Assembly: GCA_002070025.1 (NCBI GenBank)
Contig: MWCL01000009.1
Location: forward strand, 1 to 57,708
DNA length: 57,708 nt
Direction: 5' to 3'
Source: Spirochaetes bacterium ADurb.Bin215
Lineage (GTDB): Bacteria > Spirochaetota > Spirochaetia > Treponematales > Treponemataceae
Position 1 is the stretch's first letter. Every line of letters begins with the position of its first letter. Below the pieces are notes generated by a model, which was not told the DNA's origin, did no database searches, and saw only the letters and a program-made list of their open reading frames with translations. The translations under genes were made by a program, and so were the position numbers. Positions 2,168-9,434 of this stretch are shown one piece after another.

Positions 2168-2183
2168 TTTAGTAAATACTAAA
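2168..2183. promoter_or_regulatory. Candidate regulator operator, site A
   Basis: TTTAGT-AAAT-ACTAAA is a perfect inverted repeat of two 6-base arms around 4 bases. It lies about 27 bp upstream of the -35 box of the ABC importer promoter. The same 6-4-6 architecture with matching half-sites occurs at 2269-2284 and at 9384-9399 over the promoter of the ArsR-like regulator. Binding by that regulator is an inference. Confidence 0.55.
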
Positions 2184-2209
2184 ACAAAAAATAAAAAACT
2201 AAAAAACAT

Positions 2210-2239
2210 TTGACAATTTGAAAATAATGACTCTATACT
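2210..2239 (+). promoter_or_regulatory. Sigma-70-type promoter of the sugar ABC importer operon
   Basis: A perfect -35 box TTGACA (2210-2215) is followed after 18 bp by TATACT (2234-2239). A second -10-like box TATAAT (2261-2266) without a good -35 lies downstream. The 209-base gap between the GH3 gene and the binding-protein gene is AT-rich and holds this promoter between two candidate operators. Confidence 0.75.
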
Positions 2240-2268
2240 TTCGTTAGGTTGATTAGTATCTATAATGT

Positions 2269-2284
2269 TATAGTAGTTACTAAA
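2269..2284. promoter_or_regulatory. Candidate regulator operator, site B
   Basis: TATAGT-AGTT-ACTAAA shares the 6-4-6 inverted-repeat plan of sites A and C, with one mismatch between the arms. It sits downstream of the main -10 box and next to a second TATAAT, where a bound repressor would block initiation or early elongation. Centres of sites A and B are about 101 bp apart, which would permit looping. Confidence 0.5.
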
Positions 2285-2308
2285 TAAAAGACGGAAGGAG
2301 GACAAATT

Positions 2309-3610
2309 ATGAAATATTTGTCAAAGATTCTTGCGGTGACAATGATGTTCTTCATTGCCGCCGCCGTGTTTGCCGGCGGAGCGACTGACCAGAGCGCTTC
2401 GGGAGACAAAGTTACCACGCTGACATTCTGGACCTTTCAGGAACTGCACAGCGCGTTCATGCTGGATGCCGTGGAGAGCTGGAACAAATTGCATCCTGCA
2501 GAGAAAGTCACCCTGAAGGTTGATGTTCTTCCCTATGATGAAATGCACAACAAACTGCTCATTTCTCTTCAGGCGGGTACCGGTGCTCCTGATATCTCCG
2601 ATATCGAGATTTCCCGGTTTGCCAACTATCTGAAGGGTAAGAATCCGGGACTCGCACCGCTCAATGATGTTCTTGCCGCGGACCTGGACAAGTTTGTCCG
2701 TGGACGGCTGGACAATTACGCGAAAGACGGCAAGTTCTACGGTCTTGATTATCATGTCGGTGCTTCGGTCATGTACTACAACAAGGAAATCATGGATCAG
2801 GCGGGCGTTGATATCGATTCCATCATTACCTGGGACGATTATTTCGAAGCAGGTAAAAAGGTTGTCGCGAAGACCGGCAAGCCCATGTCGACCATCGAAT
2901 CAACTGAACACTGGTCCTACTACCCGCTCATCTCCCAGCAGGGTTCCGACTTCCTCGACAAGAACGGTAACGGGGTACTGGATAACGATATCAACGTAAA
3001 GACCCTCGAGTTCCTCAAGAAGATGCTGGATGCCAATGTCGTTATTACCGCTCCGGCCGGATTCCACCATTCGGAGGAATACTGGAGTTTCATGAACAAT
3101 TCCGGTGCTGCGTCACTGTGGATGCCCCTGTGGTACATGGGCCGGTTCACGTCCTACATGCCGAAGCTCAAGGGCAAGATTGTTGTCCGACCGCTTCCGG
3201 TCTGGAAGAAGGGTGGATCACGGTCTGCCGGTATGGGTGGCACCGGTACCGCAGTTACCAACCAGTCAAAGAATCTTGATCTTGCCAAACGGTTCCTTGC
3301 GTATGCCAAGGGCTCAAAAGAGGGATCAATCAAGACCTGGACAGTCCTCGGTTTCGATCCGATCCGCTGGGATGTATGGTCCGATCCTGCCATGAAGGCT
3401 CCGAATATTTATACCGACTACTTTGGAAACGGTGTATTCGACATGCTCGTAAGCATCAAGGATGAAATCGGCGGCATCAATGTCGGCGAGAAATATCCCG
3501 AGGCGGTCAGTATCGTACAGCGGAATGTCATGTTCAAAGTACTCGGCGAAAAGAGCGCAACGCCCAAAGAGGCATTGAGCGCTGCGAATAAACTGCTCAA
3601 CAGCAGATAA
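2309..3610 (+). CDS. Sugar ABC importer, extracellular solute-binding protein (family 1)
   Basis: A 433-residue binding protein that captures a sugar or oligosaccharide outside the inner membrane and delivers it to the two permeases encoded next. It has a signal peptide ending near VFA-GG (about residue 22), no lipobox Cys there, and the family-1 pattern: TLTFWTFQE near the mature start, PDISDIEISRF, and aromatic-rich segments such as EHWSYYPL and LWMPLWYMG that commonly line sugar clefts. A strong Shine-Dalgarno (GGAAGGAGG) precedes ATG 2309. It is the first gene of the operon binding protein-permease-permease-GH51-GH43, so an arabinan-derived oligosaccharide is the likely ligand. No ATP-binding subunit is encoded here; such operons often share an MsmK-like ATPase encoded elsewhere. 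Confidence 0.93.
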   Translation: MKYLSKILAVTMMFFIAAAVFAGGATDQSASGDKVTTLTFWTFQELHSAFMLDAVESWNKLHPAEKVTLKVDVLPYDEMHNKLLISLQAGTGAPDISDIEISRFANYLKGKNPGLAPLNDVLAADLDKFVRGRLDNYAKDGKFYGLDYHVGASVMYYNKEIMDQAGVDIDSIITWDDYFEAGKKVVAKTGKPMSTIESTEHWSYYPLISQQGSDFLDKNGNGVLDNDINVKTLEFLKKMLDANVVITAPAGFHHSEEYWSFMNNSGAASLWMPLWYMGRFTSYMPKLKGKIVVRPLPVWKKGGSRSAGMGGTGTAVTNQSKNLDLAKRFLAYAKGSKEGSIKTWTVLGFDPIRWDVWSDPAMKAPNIYTDYFGNGVFDMLVSIKDEIGGINVGEKYPEAVSIVQRNVMFKVLGEKSATPKEALSAANKLLNSR

Positions 3611-3622
3611 CGCGTAATGGTT

Positions 3623-3653
3623 TTACCGCGGAGCGATAGTTTCTCCGCGGTAA
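3623..3653 (+). promoter_or_regulatory. Intercistronic hairpin after the binding-protein gene
   Basis: TTACCGCGGAG (3623-3633) pairs perfectly over 11 bp with CTCCGCGGTAA (3643-3653) around a 9-base loop, followed by a weak T-rich stretch. Hairpins here commonly protect the binding-protein mRNA or act as partial terminators, so that binding protein is made in excess over permease. The following permease has its own Shine-Dalgarno and no visible promoter, which fits read-through. Confidence 0.7.
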
Positions 3654-3680
3654 TTTCGTTACAACCTATTGGAGGAGTAC

Positions 3681-4586
3681 ATGCCGGGGTCATTCTTTTC
3701 ACGACGCATCATTACGCAAAAAACCGCTCCATGGATTTTTGTTTCGCCGTTTATCATTGTATTTTTCGTTTTTTTCCTGTATCCACTCATTTCAACATTC
3801 GTGATGAGTCTCCAGGAAATTCATGGTCCGGGTGATGTAACGTTTATCGGACTGCAGAATTACCGGGCGCTGGCAAATGAGCAATTCGCCCACGCAATCA
3901 AGAACAGCGCGGTCTATACCATTTTGACAATTGCCATCCTGGTACCGCTTCCGCTTGTTCTGGCGGTATTCATCAATGCCCAAACAACACGGCTTCGGGG
4001 TTTTTTCAAGTCAGCCTATTTTCTTCCGGCGCTTACCTCGGTTGTTGTTGCCGGTCTTTTTTTCCGTTTTGCTTTCAGTGCCCAGGAAACGGCTTTTATA
4101 AACAAGCTTGTTGCCACCATCGGGGGAACGCCAAAGGATTGGCTGTTTCAGCGGTGGACAACCATGTTCGTTCTGGTACTTTTTTGTACCTGGCGATGGT
4201 TCGGTGTCAATATAATCTATTTTCTTTCCGGGCTTAACGCCATTCCGCAAGAACAGTACGAGGCCGCCGAGATTGACGGCGCGTCTCCATTTCAGCGTTT
4301 TTTCTTTATAACGCTGCCGAATCTGAAAGCCGTTACCGTCTATGTGGTAACCATAAGCGTATACGGCGGATTCGCAATGTTTGCCGAAAGCTTCACCATG
4401 TTCGGTTCTGCCCGATCACCGGGAGATATCGGTTTGACCATAGTCGGGTACATCTATCTTGAAGGATTCAATTTTGCCCGGCTCGGCATGGGTTCAGCCA
4501 TCGGGGTGACCCTGTTTGTCATCATCATGACCGTTAATCTGATACAACTCAGCTTTACGGGTACGTTCAGGAAGAAGGGGAACTGA
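3681..4586 (+). CDS. Sugar ABC importer permease, MalF/UgpA type
   Basis: A 301-residue inner-membrane permease with about six hydrophobic helices. It carries the cytoplasmic EAA loop, seen as EQYEAAEIDGASPFQRFFFI, which docks on the ATPase. ATG at 3681 is chosen because GGAGGAG (3671-3677) lies 3 bases upstream; an in-frame TTG at 3669 overlaps that site and would remove it. It pairs with the next gene as the heterodimeric membrane channel for the upstream binding protein. The stop codon is 2 bases before the next start, so the two are probably translated together. Confidence 0.93.
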   Translation: MPGSFFSRRIITQKTAPWIFVSPFIIVFFVFFLYPLISTFVMSLQEIHGPGDVTFIGLQNYRALANEQFAHAIKNSAVYTILTIAILVPLPLVLAVFINAQTTRLRGFFKSAYFLPALTSVVVAGLFFRFAFSAQETAFINKLVATIGGTPKDWLFQRWTTMFVLVLFCTWRWFGVNIIYFLSGLNAIPQEQYEAAEIDGASPFQRFFFITLPNLKAVTVYVVTISVYGGFAMFAESFTMFGSARSPGDIGLTIVGYIYLEGFNFARLGMGSAIGVTLFVIIMTVNLIQLSFTGTFRKKGN

Positions 4587-4588
4587 GT

Positions 4589-5437
4589 ATGACCTACCAC
4601 AATAGATCAATTCTGATACAACAAATTCTGAAGTATATGGTCATGGTCGCCATGTCGGTTTTTGCCCTGGCTCCATTTCTGTTTCTGCTTCTCTCCTCGC
4701 TCCGGCCCGGCGCTCAAATGGTGCAAAACGGACTCACGCTTGATTTTGACTTGCGGACAATGAGTCTTGAAGGATACCGGATTCTCATGAACTACAGCGA
4801 AGGGCTGTACTTTAACTGGTACACAAACAGCGTGATCATTACCATTGTCCAGACCTGTGTTTCCGTTCTGCTCAGTTCAATGGTTGGCTACGCGCTCGCC
4901 GTGTACGATTTCAGGGGACGGAACCTGGTTTTTACCGTGGTTCTTGCGGTCATGATGATTCCCGTCGAGATTCTCATTCTTCCGCTTTTCAAACTGACAA
5001 TTCTTTTGAAGATCATTGACACAAAAGCTGGAGTCATTCTTCCGTTCGCCGTTTCTCCGTTCGCGGTATTCTTTTTCCGTCAGTATTCCATGGGGATTCC
5101 GAAAGATCTCATCGACTCGGGACGGATCGACGGATGTAATGAACTGGGAATATTTTTCAGAATCATTACTCCGGTGCTCTTGCCTGCATTCGGGGCAATC
5201 GCCATTCTCCAGGCAATGGGAAGCTGGAATTCATTCCTCTGGCCGCTCATTGTACTGCGTTCTAACGAAAATTTGACATTGCCTATCGGACTGCAATCGT
5301 TGTTGACGCCGTATGGGAACAACTACGACGTATTGCTGTCCGGATCGGTTTTGTCGATAATACCAATCATCATCGTCTTTCTGCTGAATCAGAAAGCGTT
5401 TATTACCGGCCTGACTGTCGGAAGTGTAAAGGGATAA
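4589..5437 (+). CDS. Sugar ABC importer permease, MalG/UgpE type
   Basis: A 282-residue partner permease with about six transmembrane helices. The EAA loop is recognisable but divergent (DLIDSGRIDGCNELGIFFRI, with Ser where Ala is usual), followed by a typical LPAFGAIAILQAMGSWNSF stretch and the C-terminal QKAFITGLTVGSVKG tail of MalG-type subunits. It starts 2 bases after the upstream permease stop and precedes the GH51 gene by 8 bases. The complex should import the arabinose-containing oligosaccharides that the two following hydrolases produce or process. Confidence 0.93.
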   Translation: MTYHNRSILIQQILKYMVMVAMSVFALAPFLFLLLSSLRPGAQMVQNGLTLDFDLRTMSLEGYRILMNYSEGLYFNWYTNSVIITIVQTCVSVLLSSMVGYALAVYDFRGRNLVFTVVLAVMMIPVEILILPLFKLTILLKIIDTKAGVILPFAVSPFAVFFFRQYSMGIPKDLIDSGRIDGCNELGIFFRIITPVLLPAFGAIAILQAMGSWNSFLWPLIVLRSNENLTLPIGLQSLLTPYGNNYDVLLSGSVLSIIPIIIVFLLNQKAFITGLTVGSVKG

Positions 5438-5445
5438 TTACTACC

Positions 5446-6936
5446 ATGAGCAAAGTATCAATGACTGTCGAGAAAAACTTCGTACGCTCCCACGTGGACG
5501 ACCGGTTATACAGCTCCTTTATCGAGCATCTTGGCCGTGCGGTGTATTCAGGAATCTATGAACCAGACCATCCTCTGGCAGATGAACAGGGATTCAGAAA
5601 GGACGTGATTGCCCTGGTGCGGGACCTCGGTGTTTCGTTGATCCGGTATCCGGGCGGAAACTTCCTTTCCGGGTATGACTGGAAAGACGGTATCGGTCCG
5701 CGGAATAGTCGTCCGCGTCGTCTGGATCTTGCATGGAGAACCATTGAGCCAAACCTGATCGGTATTGACGAGTTTGTTGACTGGTCAAAAAAAGCCGGGA
5801 CCGGCATCATGGGCGCGGTAAACATGGGAACCGGCACGCCGAAAGAAGCGGGCGAGTTACTGGAATACTGCAATTTTTCCGGCGGAACGTACTGGAGCGA
5901 CTTGCGAAAAAAGAATGGGCACCCGGAACCCTACGGAATAAAAACCTGGTGTGTGGGAAATGAAATGGACGGGCCCTGGCAAATTTGCCATCTCGACGCA
6001 GTCGACTACGGAAAAAAAGCCCGGGAAACCGCCAAGATAATGAAATGGATTGACGAGGATATCGAGCTGGTTGCCTGTGGAAGCGCGACCAGTCTCATGC
6101 CGAGTTATCCCGAGTGGGACCGGATCGTTCTAGAGCATACGTATGAGCAGGTGGATTATCTCTCGCTCCACCGGTACTACGAGAATCATGGGAACGACCG
6201 GGATTTTCTCGCGTCCTTTGTGGACATGGACCGCTTCATAAAAAGTGTCGCGTCCACGGTTGATTACGTGAAGGCGCTCAAGCGGAGCTCCAAAACGGTG
6301 TACCTTTCATTCGATGAGTGGAATGTGTGGTATCAGCAAAAGCAGACCCGCTTTGATTGGGAAGTGGCACCGCCCATTCTGGAGGATCAATACTCCCTGC
6401 TTGACGCGCTTGTATTCGCCGGTTTGGGTATTACCCTTATCAACAATTCCGACCGGGTGCGGATTGCCTGTCTTGCGCAGTTGGTAAATGTTATCGCGCC
6501 CATCTTTACCCAAAAAGGTGGACCGGCGATCATGCAGAGCACGTACTGGCCGTTCAGGGATATTTCCCGCTACGGACGTGGTTCGGTACTTGAACCGGTA
6601 ATCAAGGCCCCAACGATGGAAACCGTGTACGGCGACGCGCCGGTACTGGCTCTTGCGGCGGTACACCAGGAAGATTCCCGTGAACTGACGGTGTTTTGTC
6701 TGAACATTGACGAGACAGAGACCCATCAACTTGATCTCGCGCTCGGATCTTTCGGCGATATAACCATGATCTCGCGACAGGAGCTTTCGGGCAAAGACCG
6801 CCATGCGAAAAATGACTTTTCCATGCCGGACAGGATTATACCGAAATCTCTGGAACCTGTTCAGGGATCATGTCCGAATTGTTCTTTGATCATACCGCCG
6901 CTTTCCTGGAATGTGTTCCGCTTTTCCTATAGCTGA
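5446..6936 (+). CDS. abfA: GH51 alpha-L-arabinofuranosidase, cytoplasmic
   Basis: A 496-residue retaining arabinofuranosidase that removes terminal alpha-L-arabinofuranose from arabinan, arabinoxylan or imported arabino-oligosaccharides. The general acid/base Glu is in CVGNEMDG (about residue 173) and the nucleophile Glu in SFDEWNVWY (about residue 291). FIEHLGRAVYSGIYEP near the N-terminus and the C-terminal beta-sandwich match full-length GH51 enzymes. No signal peptide is present, so it probably acts inside the cell on sugars brought in by the ABC importer encoded just upstream. It starts 8 bases after the permease stop; its Shine-Dalgarno is weak, which suggests dependence on upstream translation. 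Confidence 0.95.
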   Translation: MSKVSMTVEKNFVRSHVDDRLYSSFIEHLGRAVYSGIYEPDHPLADEQGFRKDVIALVRDLGVSLIRYPGGNFLSGYDWKDGIGPRNSRPRRLDLAWRTIEPNLIGIDEFVDWSKKAGTGIMGAVNMGTGTPKEAGELLEYCNFSGGTYWSDLRKKNGHPEPYGIKTWCVGNEMDGPWQICHLDAVDYGKKARETAKIMKWIDEDIELVACGSATSLMPSYPEWDRIVLEHTYEQVDYLSLHRYYENHGNDRDFLASFVDMDRFIKSVASTVDYVKALKRSSKTVYLSFDEWNVWYQQKQTRFDWEVAPPILEDQYSLLDALVFAGLGITLINNSDRVRIACLAQLVNVIAPIFTQKGGPAIMQSTYWPFRDISRYGRGSVLEPVIKAPTMETVYGDAPVLALAAVHQEDSRELTVFCLNIDETETHQLDLALGSFGDITMISRQELSGKDRHAKNDFSMPDRIIPKSLEPVQGSCPNCSLIIPPLSWNVFRFSYS

Positions 6937-6951
6937 TTGAAGGGTCGTGAA

Positions 6952-8442
6952 ATGTATGGTGGTCAGGTAAAAAAAGGTACACGGTTTTTTCGTGTACCGG
7001 CGATCATGGTTGCGGGGGTGCTTCTGGTTTGTTCCTGTGTGTCCTCCTCTCACACGGGTACGGAGATTGCTTCTGCCAATCTCCGGTTTCCTGAACGCCC
7101 CCCGGAACTACGTCTTTTCGATTACACGGGATTCCGTGATCCGGCCACCTGGGGATTGTTGAATGGACACGATCCGTCGGTTATCCGGGATCCGGAAACC
7201 GGATTCTGGTACGCGTACTCAACGGATGTTCAGCGCGGCATGCTTGCGGAAAGCGGCATTCAGATCAGACGTTCGTCGGATCTTGTTTCCTGGGAGTTCA
7301 TCGGGCGGGCTCTGGAAGGAATTCCGGACGATGTGGATGACTGGGCGAGTCCTGCCGGATTCTGGGCTCCCGCCTGTATCCGGGTTAATGGTGAATACCG
7401 ACTCTATTATTCCGCGTCAATGTTCGGAAAACAGCGTTCCGCAATTGCGCTTGCGGTATCGGCGAATCCTGAAGGGCCTTTTGTGCACCGGGGAATCGTT
7501 CTGAAAACGGATACCGGTGATCCGGTGAATGCGATAGATCCGGCGATTGTCATTGACAATGAAACCGGCGCCCACTGGATGGTCTACGGTTCGTTCTGGG
7601 ACGGTATCCGTATGCTTCCTCTCGATACGGAAACCGGGTTTCTTCTTTCCGGACAAGTCGGGGATACGTTCGGTATTCCTGTTGCCACACGAAGCCGTGC
7701 TGTGGACGGTGCCGTTGAAGGGGCAGACATTGTGTTCAATTCCGGGACCGGATATAATTATCTCTTTGTATCGTACGGTTCGCTTTTTTCCGACTATCAT
7801 ATACGGGTTGCACGGAGCAAGACCCTTACCGGTCCGTACCGTGACCGGAACGGCCGTGTAATGACAGATACCACCTCGCCGGACAACCCTGCAGGACTGA
7901 AAATAACGAGCGGTTTCAAGTTCGGGACTACTCCGGGGTGGTTCGCCCCGGGACATTCTGCAGCTTTCAACGATGGTGAATCCTGGTACCTTGCCCATCA
8001 TGCCCGTCCGGAGGATGGTACCTCCTGGCCATATCTTCAGATACGGCGGATGTTCTGGACCCCTGACGGATGGCCGATAGTGAATCCGCTCAGTTATTCC
8101 GGCGAGACGGAACAACCGGTCAGTCCCGTTGATGTAGAGGGTGCCTACGACATCATTCTTTTTGAAGACAATCCTGAATCCACTATAACCGGATCCACCG
8201 TTCTGGAAATGAAAGTATCCGGTAAATTTACACTGTTAACGAAAGATTCGGGAGAGAAGATCCGGGGAACATGGGGTCTCTCCGGTAGCAACACGATACG
8301 TTTTGCTGCGGCGGAGTGGGGTGCCGAATGTGTGGTGATTCCTTCATGGGACCGCACCACGGACAGCGCGGCAATGGTGCTTACCGGTCTTGATTCGCGG
8401 GGACGTTGTGTATGGGCCTGTTCACTCCGGCAAGCGTTGTGA
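6952..8442 (+). CDS. GH43 endo-1,5-alpha-L-arabinanase lipoprotein
   Basis: A 496-residue five-bladed beta-propeller hydrolase cutting the arabinan backbone outside the inner membrane. The three acidic residues are visible: base Asp in GHDPSV (about 74), Asp in AIDPAI (about 196) and acid Glu in AVEGADI (about 256). The extra C-terminal beta-rich domain of about 120 residues (DIILFEDNPESTI onward) resembles that of Bacillus Abn2-type arabinanases. ATG 6952 has AAGGG 7 bases upstream; the earlier in-frame TTG at 6937 is adjacent to the GH51 stop and has no such site. The signal peptide ends with VCSC, a plausible lipobox. Together with the GH51 enzyme and importer it forms an outside-cut, import, inside-trim pathway. 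Confidence 0.9.
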   Translation: MYGGQVKKGTRFFRVPAIMVAGVLLVCSCVSSSHTGTEIASANLRFPERPPELRLFDYTGFRDPATWGLLNGHDPSVIRDPETGFWYAYSTDVQRGMLAESGIQIRRSSDLVSWEFIGRALEGIPDDVDDWASPAGFWAPACIRVNGEYRLYYSASMFGKQRSAIALAVSANPEGPFVHRGIVLKTDTGDPVNAIDPAIVIDNETGAHWMVYGSFWDGIRMLPLDTETGFLLSGQVGDTFGIPVATRSRAVDGAVEGADIVFNSGTGYNYLFVSYGSLFSDYHIRVARSKTLTGPYRDRNGRVMTDTTSPDNPAGLKITSGFKFGTTPGWFAPGHSAAFNDGESWYLAHHARPEDGTSWPYLQIRRMFWTPDGWPIVNPLSYSGETEQPVSPVDVEGAYDIILFEDNPESTITGSTVLEMKVSGKFTLLTKDSGEKIRGTWGLSGSNTIRFAAAEWGAECVVIPSWDRTTDSAAMVLTGLDSRGRCVWACSLRQAL

Positions 8443-8457
8443 CAGAGGGTGTTGCCG

Positions 8458-9375
8458 TTACTCCTCGCTGAAGATGGTTCTTACCTTGATGTCCTGGTTG
8501 TAGTTTCCGAAACCCTTTCCGAACAGCGTGCAGCCGCCCACATGCGCAGCAGTGTCCGGGACGGCAACCCGGAACGTGATGGGACTTGTTGAGTCAATAC
8601 CGAGTTTGACCGTGTTTATATCCGAAATTTTTCCACCATCGATGTAGGTACCTTCATTGTTAATGGTTAACAGTTTCAGCAGTCCGTAGGAATTCCAGTG
8701 TTCATCCCACCACTCGGGAGTAAACAGGCCCTTGACGGCCCCGCCGAAATCTCCGGGACTTGTCCAGAATCCCAAATCAATACCGTTAATCGAGAAATAA
8801 ATATCGCTCGGCCAATTGGAACATACCCCGGGAGCTTCAGAGCAGATCTCGAATGAAATCTGCAATTCTTCAAGTGTCTGGCTATCCTTCAGATAATTCG
8901 GTATCCGGTATTCAACAAAGCCTTTGGTGAACCAGAGAATACCCGCTTCCTTCTTGGACGGATCATCGAAATATCTCGGTTCATCCACTTCTCCGATTAC
9001 AGTACGTTGAGTCGCGATACCGCAGGTGGGCAATACAAGATACTGGGTAAAGGTTCCGATTGGAATTTCTGTTTCATACATGAGCGTATGATCCAGGTCT
9101 GAAAGTATGTCTATCATGAAAAGATGATCTTTCAGTGTGCAAATCTTCTGCGAACCACGTTTCCCGGATGTATAGATAAACTCGACCAGATCGGCTTCCA
9201 GGAGCGGTTTCATGTGCTGGGTTATGGCTCCGTTCGTTACATTTACCGCCTCGGCAAGTTCATTCAGGTTGATCTGTCGACGTTCGGCAATCGTTTTTAG
9301 CATTTGTAGACGCACCGGTGAACTCAATGCCTTGCTGAGTGTCAGTATTCCGGAGTGGGTGTTTATATCTCGCAT
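8458..9375 (-). CDS. ArsR-like winged-helix regulator with large C-terminal sensor domain
   Basis: A 305-residue regulator. Residues about 8-90 form an ArsR-type winged helix: SSPVRLQMLKTIAE, then NLNELAEAVNVTNGAITQHMKPL as the recognition helix, then LVEFIYTSGKRGSQKICTL as the wing. Residues about 95-305 look like a beta-rich ligand-binding domain rich in aromatics, with no metal-binding Cys cluster. It converges on the GH43 gene with a 15-base gap and probably controls the arabinan locus. ATG 9375 is preferred to the in-frame TTG at 9420: its -10 box TATAAT ends 6 bases before this ATG, which predicts a leaderless mRNA, and the TTG would lie upstream of the promoter. A 6-4-6 inverted repeat over the -10 box suggests autoregulation. 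The ligand, perhaps arabinose or an arabino-oligosaccharide, is inferred from context. Confidence 0.8.
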   Translation of the reverse strand: MRDINTHSGILTLSKALSSPVRLQMLKTIAERRQINLNELAEAVNVTNGAITQHMKPLLEADLVEFIYTSGKRGSQKICTLKDHLFMIDILSDLDHTLMYETEIPIGTFTQYLVLPTCGIATQRTVIGEVDEPRYFDDPSKKEAGILWFTKGFVEYRIPNYLKDSQTLEELQISFEICSEAPGVCSNWPSDIYFSINGIDLGFWTSPGDFGGAVKGLFTPEWWDEHWNSYGLLKLLTINNEGTYIDGGKISDINTVKLGIDSTSPITFRVAVPDTAAHVGGCTLFGKGFGNYNQDIKVRTIFSEE

Positions 9376-9381
9376 GAAAAT

Positions 9382-9410
9382 ATTATAGCAAACACTATAA
9401 CTTTTGTATA
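9382..9410 (-). promoter_or_regulatory. Promoter of the ArsR-like regulator
   Basis: On the minus strand, TATACA (9410-9405) is followed after 17 bp by a perfect TATAAT (9387-9382). Six bases separate the -10 box from ATG 9375, so transcription would start at or next to the start codon. The -35 box is poor, as expected for a regulated or weak promoter. Confidence 0.6.
9384..9399. promoter_or_regulatory. Candidate regulator operator, site C
   Basis: Read on the minus strand: TATAGT-GTTT-GCTATA. The left arm equals that of site B (2269-2284), and the 6-4-6 plan equals that of sites A and B. It overlaps the regulator's own TATAAT, so binding should repress the regulator's transcription. Confidence 0.55.
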
Positions 9411-9412
9411 CT

Positions 9413-9434
9413 GCTATCAAAATTGTTGAAAAAA
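9413..9434. repeat. 22-bp repeat, copy 2
   Basis: Identical over 22 bases to 2105-2126. This copy starts 2 bases after the nrdG stop region and lies just upstream of the regulator's promoter. In the minus-strand direction it contributes a T-rich run directly after nrdG. Confidence 0.75.

Follow-up and report, generated by a model that had tools for sequence, protein, structure and literature searches.

ArsR-family proteins are by default taken to be metal or stress sensors, and members of the large family to which the regulator described here belongs are annotated as such. ArbA of Caldicellulosiruptor bescii is an ArsR-family protein encoded beside the arabinofuranosidase gene abfA and associated with three predicted sites; in the accessible portion of the source report, it is proposed, by computational prediction only, to be a repressor of arabinoside use and is presented as the first member of the ArsR family to control carbohydrate use (PMC8579813). 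ArsR-annotated genes also lie beside arabinan/arabinose clusters in Geobacillus 56T3 (gene 1352; PMC4428132) and Lactobacillus rossiae (araRS; PMC4855831), where they adjoin an importer and GH43, or arabinose genes; the accessible parts of these two reports provide annotation only, with neither a motif nor a mechanism. Neither ArsR nor ArbA appears in a review from 2024 on how bacterial hemicellulase genes are regulated (PMC10766802). The locus analyzed here resembles that of ArbA, as far as the accessible part of the published description goes (PMC8579813), in that an ArsR-family gene is linked to an arabinofuranosidase gene and to conserved local operators.

Gene content of the locus and architecture of the regulator

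The window is a 57,708-nt stretch (positions 1 to 57,708) of contig MWCL01000009.1 from Spirochaetes bacterium ADurb.Bin215, to which the coordinates in Table 1 refer; the genome scanned comprises 2,606,581 bases in 189 contigs and is 95.5% complete. An operon for a sugar ABC importer, a GH51 alpha-L-arabinofuranosidase, and a GH43 endo-arabinanase is faced by the convergently transcribed regulator gene. The GH51 gene is present in a single copy, with no other relative in the genome. As judged by eye from the sequences, the endo-arabinanase, whose reading frame may alternatively start at a TTG codon at 6937, has a lipoprotein-like signal (LLVCSC) and GH51 has no evident signal peptide, suggesting that cutting takes place outside the cell and is followed by import and final hydrolysis inside. 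A GH3 gene upstream of the importer operon (198-2099) has no operator in front, and the stretches examined around the two closest orthologs contained no relative of it. The region has no Rfam match to a riboswitch or other RNA element. Genes for arabinose catabolism, namely those for a LacI-type regulator, a sugar kinase, an arabinose isomerase (araA), and a class II aldolase-type epimerase, are located on another contig of the same genome (C11; L132:6207-11099, minus strand) and probably constitute an arabinose catabolic operon under its own LacI-type control.

Table 1. Features of the arabinan locus, in window coordinates
Feature	Coordinates	Strand	Remarks
Operator A, TTTAGTAAATACTAAA	2168..2183		Upstream of importer promoter, center ~ -70
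Importer operon promoter	2210..2239	+	TTGACA 2210-2215, 18-bp spacer, TATACT 2234-2239; 11/12 consensus
Operator B', TTGATTAGTATCTATA	2249..2264		Degenerate; exactly 20 bp upstream of operator B
Operator B, TATAGTAGTTACTAAA	2269..2284		Early predicted transcript (~ +24 to +39), directly 5' of ribosome-binding site
Solute-binding protein, sugar ABC importer	2309..3610	+	Pfam SBP_bac_1, E 5.8e-37
Permease 1, sugar ABC importer	3669..4586	+	Pfam BPD_transp_1
Permease 2, sugar ABC importer	4589..5437	+	Pfam BPD_transp_1
GH51 alpha-L-arabinofuranosidase (ArfA)	5446..6936	+	NCBIfam NF051901, 690 bits vs cut-off 625
GH43 endo-arabinanase	6952..8442	+	Pfam Glyco_hydro_43 + GH43_C
Regulator, 305 aa	8458..9375	-	ArsR-type winged helix ~7-90 + CBM6/35/36-like beta-sandwich ~95-305 (predicted)
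Regulator promoter	9382..9410	-	TATACA-17-TATAAT; TATAAT = 9387-9382
Operator C, TATAGCAAACACTATA	9384..9399		Fills regulator promoter spacer, overlaps -10; autoregulatory placement

A two-domain architecture can be predicted with confidence for the regulator. Its N-terminal part exceeds the cut-offs of two ArsR-type winged helix-turn-helix profiles (Pfam HTH_20, 33.6 bits versus 27; HTH_5, 26.7 versus 22), and the modeled winged helix is closest to CadC (1u2w_C; Z 12.7, rmsd 2.2, 85 residues), with CzrA and SmtB also close. The NCBIfam metalloregulator profile HTH_metalloreg scored below its cut-off (42.1 versus 55 bits), the alpha-3 metal-site cysteines are absent, the sequence there being NLNELAEAV, and the protein has 305 residues compared to ~100-120 for ArsR/SmtB metal sensors. 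The C-terminal part is as large as had been reported in the first-pass annotation (about 210 residues), and its AlphaFold2 model, built with 70 relatives, reached a pLDDT of 95.4 and a pTM of 0.91. The top structural match was a CBM6 (2cdp_D; rmsd 2.9, 123 residues aligned) with a Z score of 9.9, which is moderately above the usual best score of 7-8 for models without clear matches. CBM35 and CBM36 entries were also among the best matches. Cry toxin domain III and BcsB, two further matches with the same beta-sandwich, are taken to reflect the fold alone. No Pfam family matches residues 95-305, none of the 70 family members matched a carbohydrate-binding Pfam family at E up to 1, and the PDB sequence matches listed cover the winged helix, apart from one weak unrelated entry. 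The domain is confidently predicted to be a CBM6/35/36-like, galactose-binding-like beta-sandwich, a match that constitutes good evidence for the fold and a lead for function.

A 22-bp sequence, GCTATCAAAATTGTTGAAAAAA, occurs on both sides of the gene group (2105-2126 and 9413-9434). It is part of a dispersed repeat, ACTGCTAYCAAAATTGTTGAAA, which is matched 182 times in this genome and 73 times, mostly as a one-base variant, in one congener, and not in any of 38 other genomes of relatives searched. The copies inspected occur as singlets, 22-bp tandems, and inverted pairs, many directly after a stop codon and some before a terminator-like hairpin. Neither of the two Y1-type transposase genes in the genome has a copy nearby, so a REPIN-type origin is unsupported so far.

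Predicted operator sites and promoter anatomy

The three inverted repeats A, B, and C that the first-pass annotation had described as 6-4-6 palindromes with TTTAGT or TATAGT half-sites were read directly in the sequence. Five of the six half-sites conform exactly to this rule, but one half of site C is TATAGC, so that this site carries one mismatch; a 5-6-5 pattern, TWTAG-N6-CTAWA, fits all three and is the better common description. In the complete genome, this pattern has three matches with zero mismatches, all at A, B, and C, compared to 18 for the reversed control pattern; the concern that the motif might be scattered over the genome was thereby dispelled. With up to one mismatch, the 6-4-6 pattern has seven matches in the genome, of which the four outside the locus lie in or near genes without arabinan-related appearance, and the araA locus has no good TWTAG-N6-CTAWA site. 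A regulon extending beyond the locus was rejected, since neither these outside sites nor the araA locus provides an arabinan-related target with a good site.

The importer promoter is of a strong sigma-70 type, and its TTGACA element is conserved across the aligned orthologous promoters. As had been claimed, it is flanked by two of the sites, A being 27 bp upstream and B 30 bp downstream, while site C overlaps the TATAAT element of the regulator promoter. The regulator -10 element ends 6-8 nt before the ATG in orthologs (L050, L031, L052-L054, and L137-L139; here 9373-9387), which places the predicted start point on or near the ATG, so that the regulator transcript is probably leaderless. The location of C over the -10 element and spacer, and that of B in the early predicted transcript, would be expected of repressor sites, and it is on these operator positions that the proposed repressor role rests.

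The spacing of A and B had been given correctly as 101 bp; however, the looping suggested between them is not borne out, given that A was found in only two examined clusters and that the A-to-B distance is 101 bp in one and 121 bp in the other. What is conserved, as judged from the aligned promoters, is instead a tandem pair of predicted sites, B' and B, exactly 20 bp apart. At offset -20 from B, the eight orthologous promoters match a mean of 7.9 of 10 consensus positions against a background of 4.6 +/- 0.8, the best of the offsets tested. Because 20 bp makes up roughly two turns of the helix, the same face of the DNA could accommodate two adjacent dimers, which might bind cooperatively. Operator B' had been missed in the first-pass annotation.

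Conservation among orthologs and in the wider family

Close relatives of the regulator are rare in Spirochaetota (9 of 393 genomes). The two closest orthologous clusters, L030 (regulator 74% identical) and L031 (71%), retain the operon order and sites at both promoters. Site A is also present in L030, at 2997 and 121 bp from B; in L031, it was not found within one mismatch, and the importer-promoter site there has one mismatch. A site equivalent to B occurs in all eight orthologous promoters, and an operator-like site is located at -24 to -26 of the regulator in those spirochete orthologs that have upstream sequence. Treponema-type orthologs (L051-L054) have sites at the same two places wherever upstream sequence is present, and the further clusters L137 and L139 fit the same picture; L138 is apparently the same contig as L052, with identical length and sites, leaving two independent clusters among L137-L139.

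The operators of the Treponema-type orthologs read TTTAA-N6-TTAAA or TTTAA-N6-YTATA, so that in most cases the G at position 5 of each half is replaced by A, and the recognition helix, TNGAITQHM in the regulator described here, is TNGAVTHHM in these orthologs and TNGTVTHHM in L054. Position 5 of the half-site is G in 21 of 24 cases with Q53 and in 2 of 22 with H53 (the other 20 include 18 with A); these counts are descriptive, since the orthologs share descent and the sites were collected with related patterns, and because the orthologs are few and related, a single evolutionary event or two may account for the correlation.

A scan of an 84,980-species genome collection yielded at least 519 confirmed relatives, the best 80 of which were used for the family analysis. 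These 80 come from Spirochaetota and Bacillota (Paenibacillus, Lachnospiraceae, Clostridia), and most of them adjoin GH51, GH43, or importer genes. In an unbiased search of 87 non-redundant upstream regions, mostly from Bacillota, that counted all 5-mer palindromes with gap lengths of 0-12, the top palindrome was TTTAG-N6-CTAAA, observed in 23 regions versus 0.15 expected; the highest count for any palindrome in shuffles was 7. One of the relatives that carry the motif is the cultured Pseudobutyrivibrio xylanivorans DSM 14809 (L081). Upstream of the regulators, the motif was 83 times as dense as in the remaining locus sequence. Chance palindromes were ruled out by this density, by the unbiased search itself, and by the uniqueness of the motif in the genome. 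In the wider family, roughly half of the upstream regions, those of Paenibacillus in particular, lack a match within one mismatch over 300 bp, suggesting that motifs have probably diverged within the family; the palindrome search did not resolve a motif specific to the Paenibacillus subgroup.

A second subfamily in related spirochetes (L035-L049; 36-39% identical, recognition helix PQSTVATNV or similar) is often located near GH51 or importer genes. These paralogs have no TWTAG-type motif within one mismatch directly upstream, and their top palindrome, TATCA-N7-TGATA, is weak (3 of 14). In six Bacillota loci (L068, L072, L077, L119, L126, and L128), two regulators of the family lie close together; in five of these loci, an exact TTTAG-N6-CTAAA site precedes the more distant member of the pair (38-41% identical). 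Relatives in three congeners (G005:C10, L022; G008:C3, L020; G009:C286, L017) each have one stop codon in the frame examined (TAG, TGA, and TGA, respectively), which may be internal to the gene or terminal.

It is an evenly balanced proposition that these proteins form a widespread Spirochaetota/Bacillota family combining an ArsR-type DNA-binding domain with a carbohydrate-binding-module-like sensor that reads imported plant cell wall oligosaccharides, with operator and recognition helix having diverged together into several subgroups. If true, a fold known mainly from secreted glycosidases would serve as a sensor inside the cell, and, in bacteria of the gut, rumen, and soil, the family would provide dedicated switches with predictable operators for arabinan and related plant fiber oligosaccharides.

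Proposed regulatory model and comparison with known systems

The regulator is proposed, with a probability of about 0.72 for the full model, to be a dedicated one-component repressor that is autoregulated and responds to arabino-oligosaccharides. A dimer would bind TWTAG-N6-CTAWA through the ArsR-type winged helix. Without substrate, repressor bound upstream at A and at B' and B, which together cover ~ +4 to +39 of the importer transcript, would block promoter escape, and repressor on operator C, inside its own promoter, would limit its own synthesis. The surface endo-arabinanase and the importer would bring arabino-oligosaccharides into the cell, where their binding to the C-terminal beta-sandwich would cause the repressor to leave the DNA, allowing the importer, GH51, and GH43 genes to be expressed. 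The single autoregulated local repressor that had been predicted in the first-pass annotation is well supported by the uniqueness of the motif, its conserved positions in orthologs, the unbiased search, and the co-variation of helix and operator.

That the effector is a sugar is plausible, since the C-terminal domain is predicted to fold like a carbohydrate-binding module, and an oligosaccharide is favored on the basis of the importer, the location of the enzymes, and the fold, as well as the encoding of free-arabinose catabolism elsewhere under its own LacI-type regulator. The same regulator and sites could alternatively respond to free L-arabinose, which GH51 would release in the cell; many characterized arabinose regulators, including AraC and AraR of the GntR family, respond to arabinose, and this precedent speaks for such an inducer. 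It is nevertheless unlikely, although a serious contender, because the separate araA operon lacks these operators and has its LacI-type regulator, and because the sensor domain is similar to oligo- and polysaccharide-binding modules. Activation of the importer operon, or activation combined with repression from A and B, would accord with the placement of A at about -70, a position used by activators, but is improbable in view of the limited conservation of A, the conserved sites being B in the early transcript and C in the regulator's promoter.

The AT-rich motif and the overlap of one half of C with TATAAT might be taken to mean that a different regulator uses the sites, or that they are AT-rich promoter stretches with a chance palindromic appearance; restriction of the motif to this locus in the genome, its linkage to the regulator gene across two phyla, and its co-variation with the recognition helix make this explanation very improbable. 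That the protein is a classical ArsR/SmtB sensor of metals or metalloids, adjoining the operon by coincidence, is scarcely credible: the similarity of the winged helix to CadC, CzrA, and SmtB is outweighed by the additional 210-residue domain and by glycosidase and importer neighbors in many genomes, and metal sensor identity was rejected on the profile score and the missing cysteines.

The dedicated repressor thus proposed has the winged-helix fold and dyad operators of CadC, CzrA, and SmtB but differs from them in the lack of metal-site cysteines, the ~210 extra residues, and the sugar utilization context. Its C-terminal domain shares the predicted beta-sandwich with CBM6, CBM35, and CBM36; in contrast to these modules, it has no Pfam profile match, is ~80 residues longer, and has a DNA-binding domain as its fusion partner, the protein as a whole having no evident export signal. 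According to the accessible part of the source report (PMC8579813), the ArbA gene is divergent with abfA and its three sites lie in one intergenic region, whereas the regulator gene described here is convergent with the importer operon and the sites are distributed over two promoters. No sensor domain is mentioned for ArbA in that part of the report. The ArbA prediction means that this kind of system has already been proposed. No paper on the combination of ArsR with a carbohydrate-binding sensor was found in the open literature, and subscription papers may differ. As far as the open literature shows, the operator, its tandem arrangement, the coupled change in the recognition helix, and the carbohydrate-binding-module-like fold of the predicted sensor are new.
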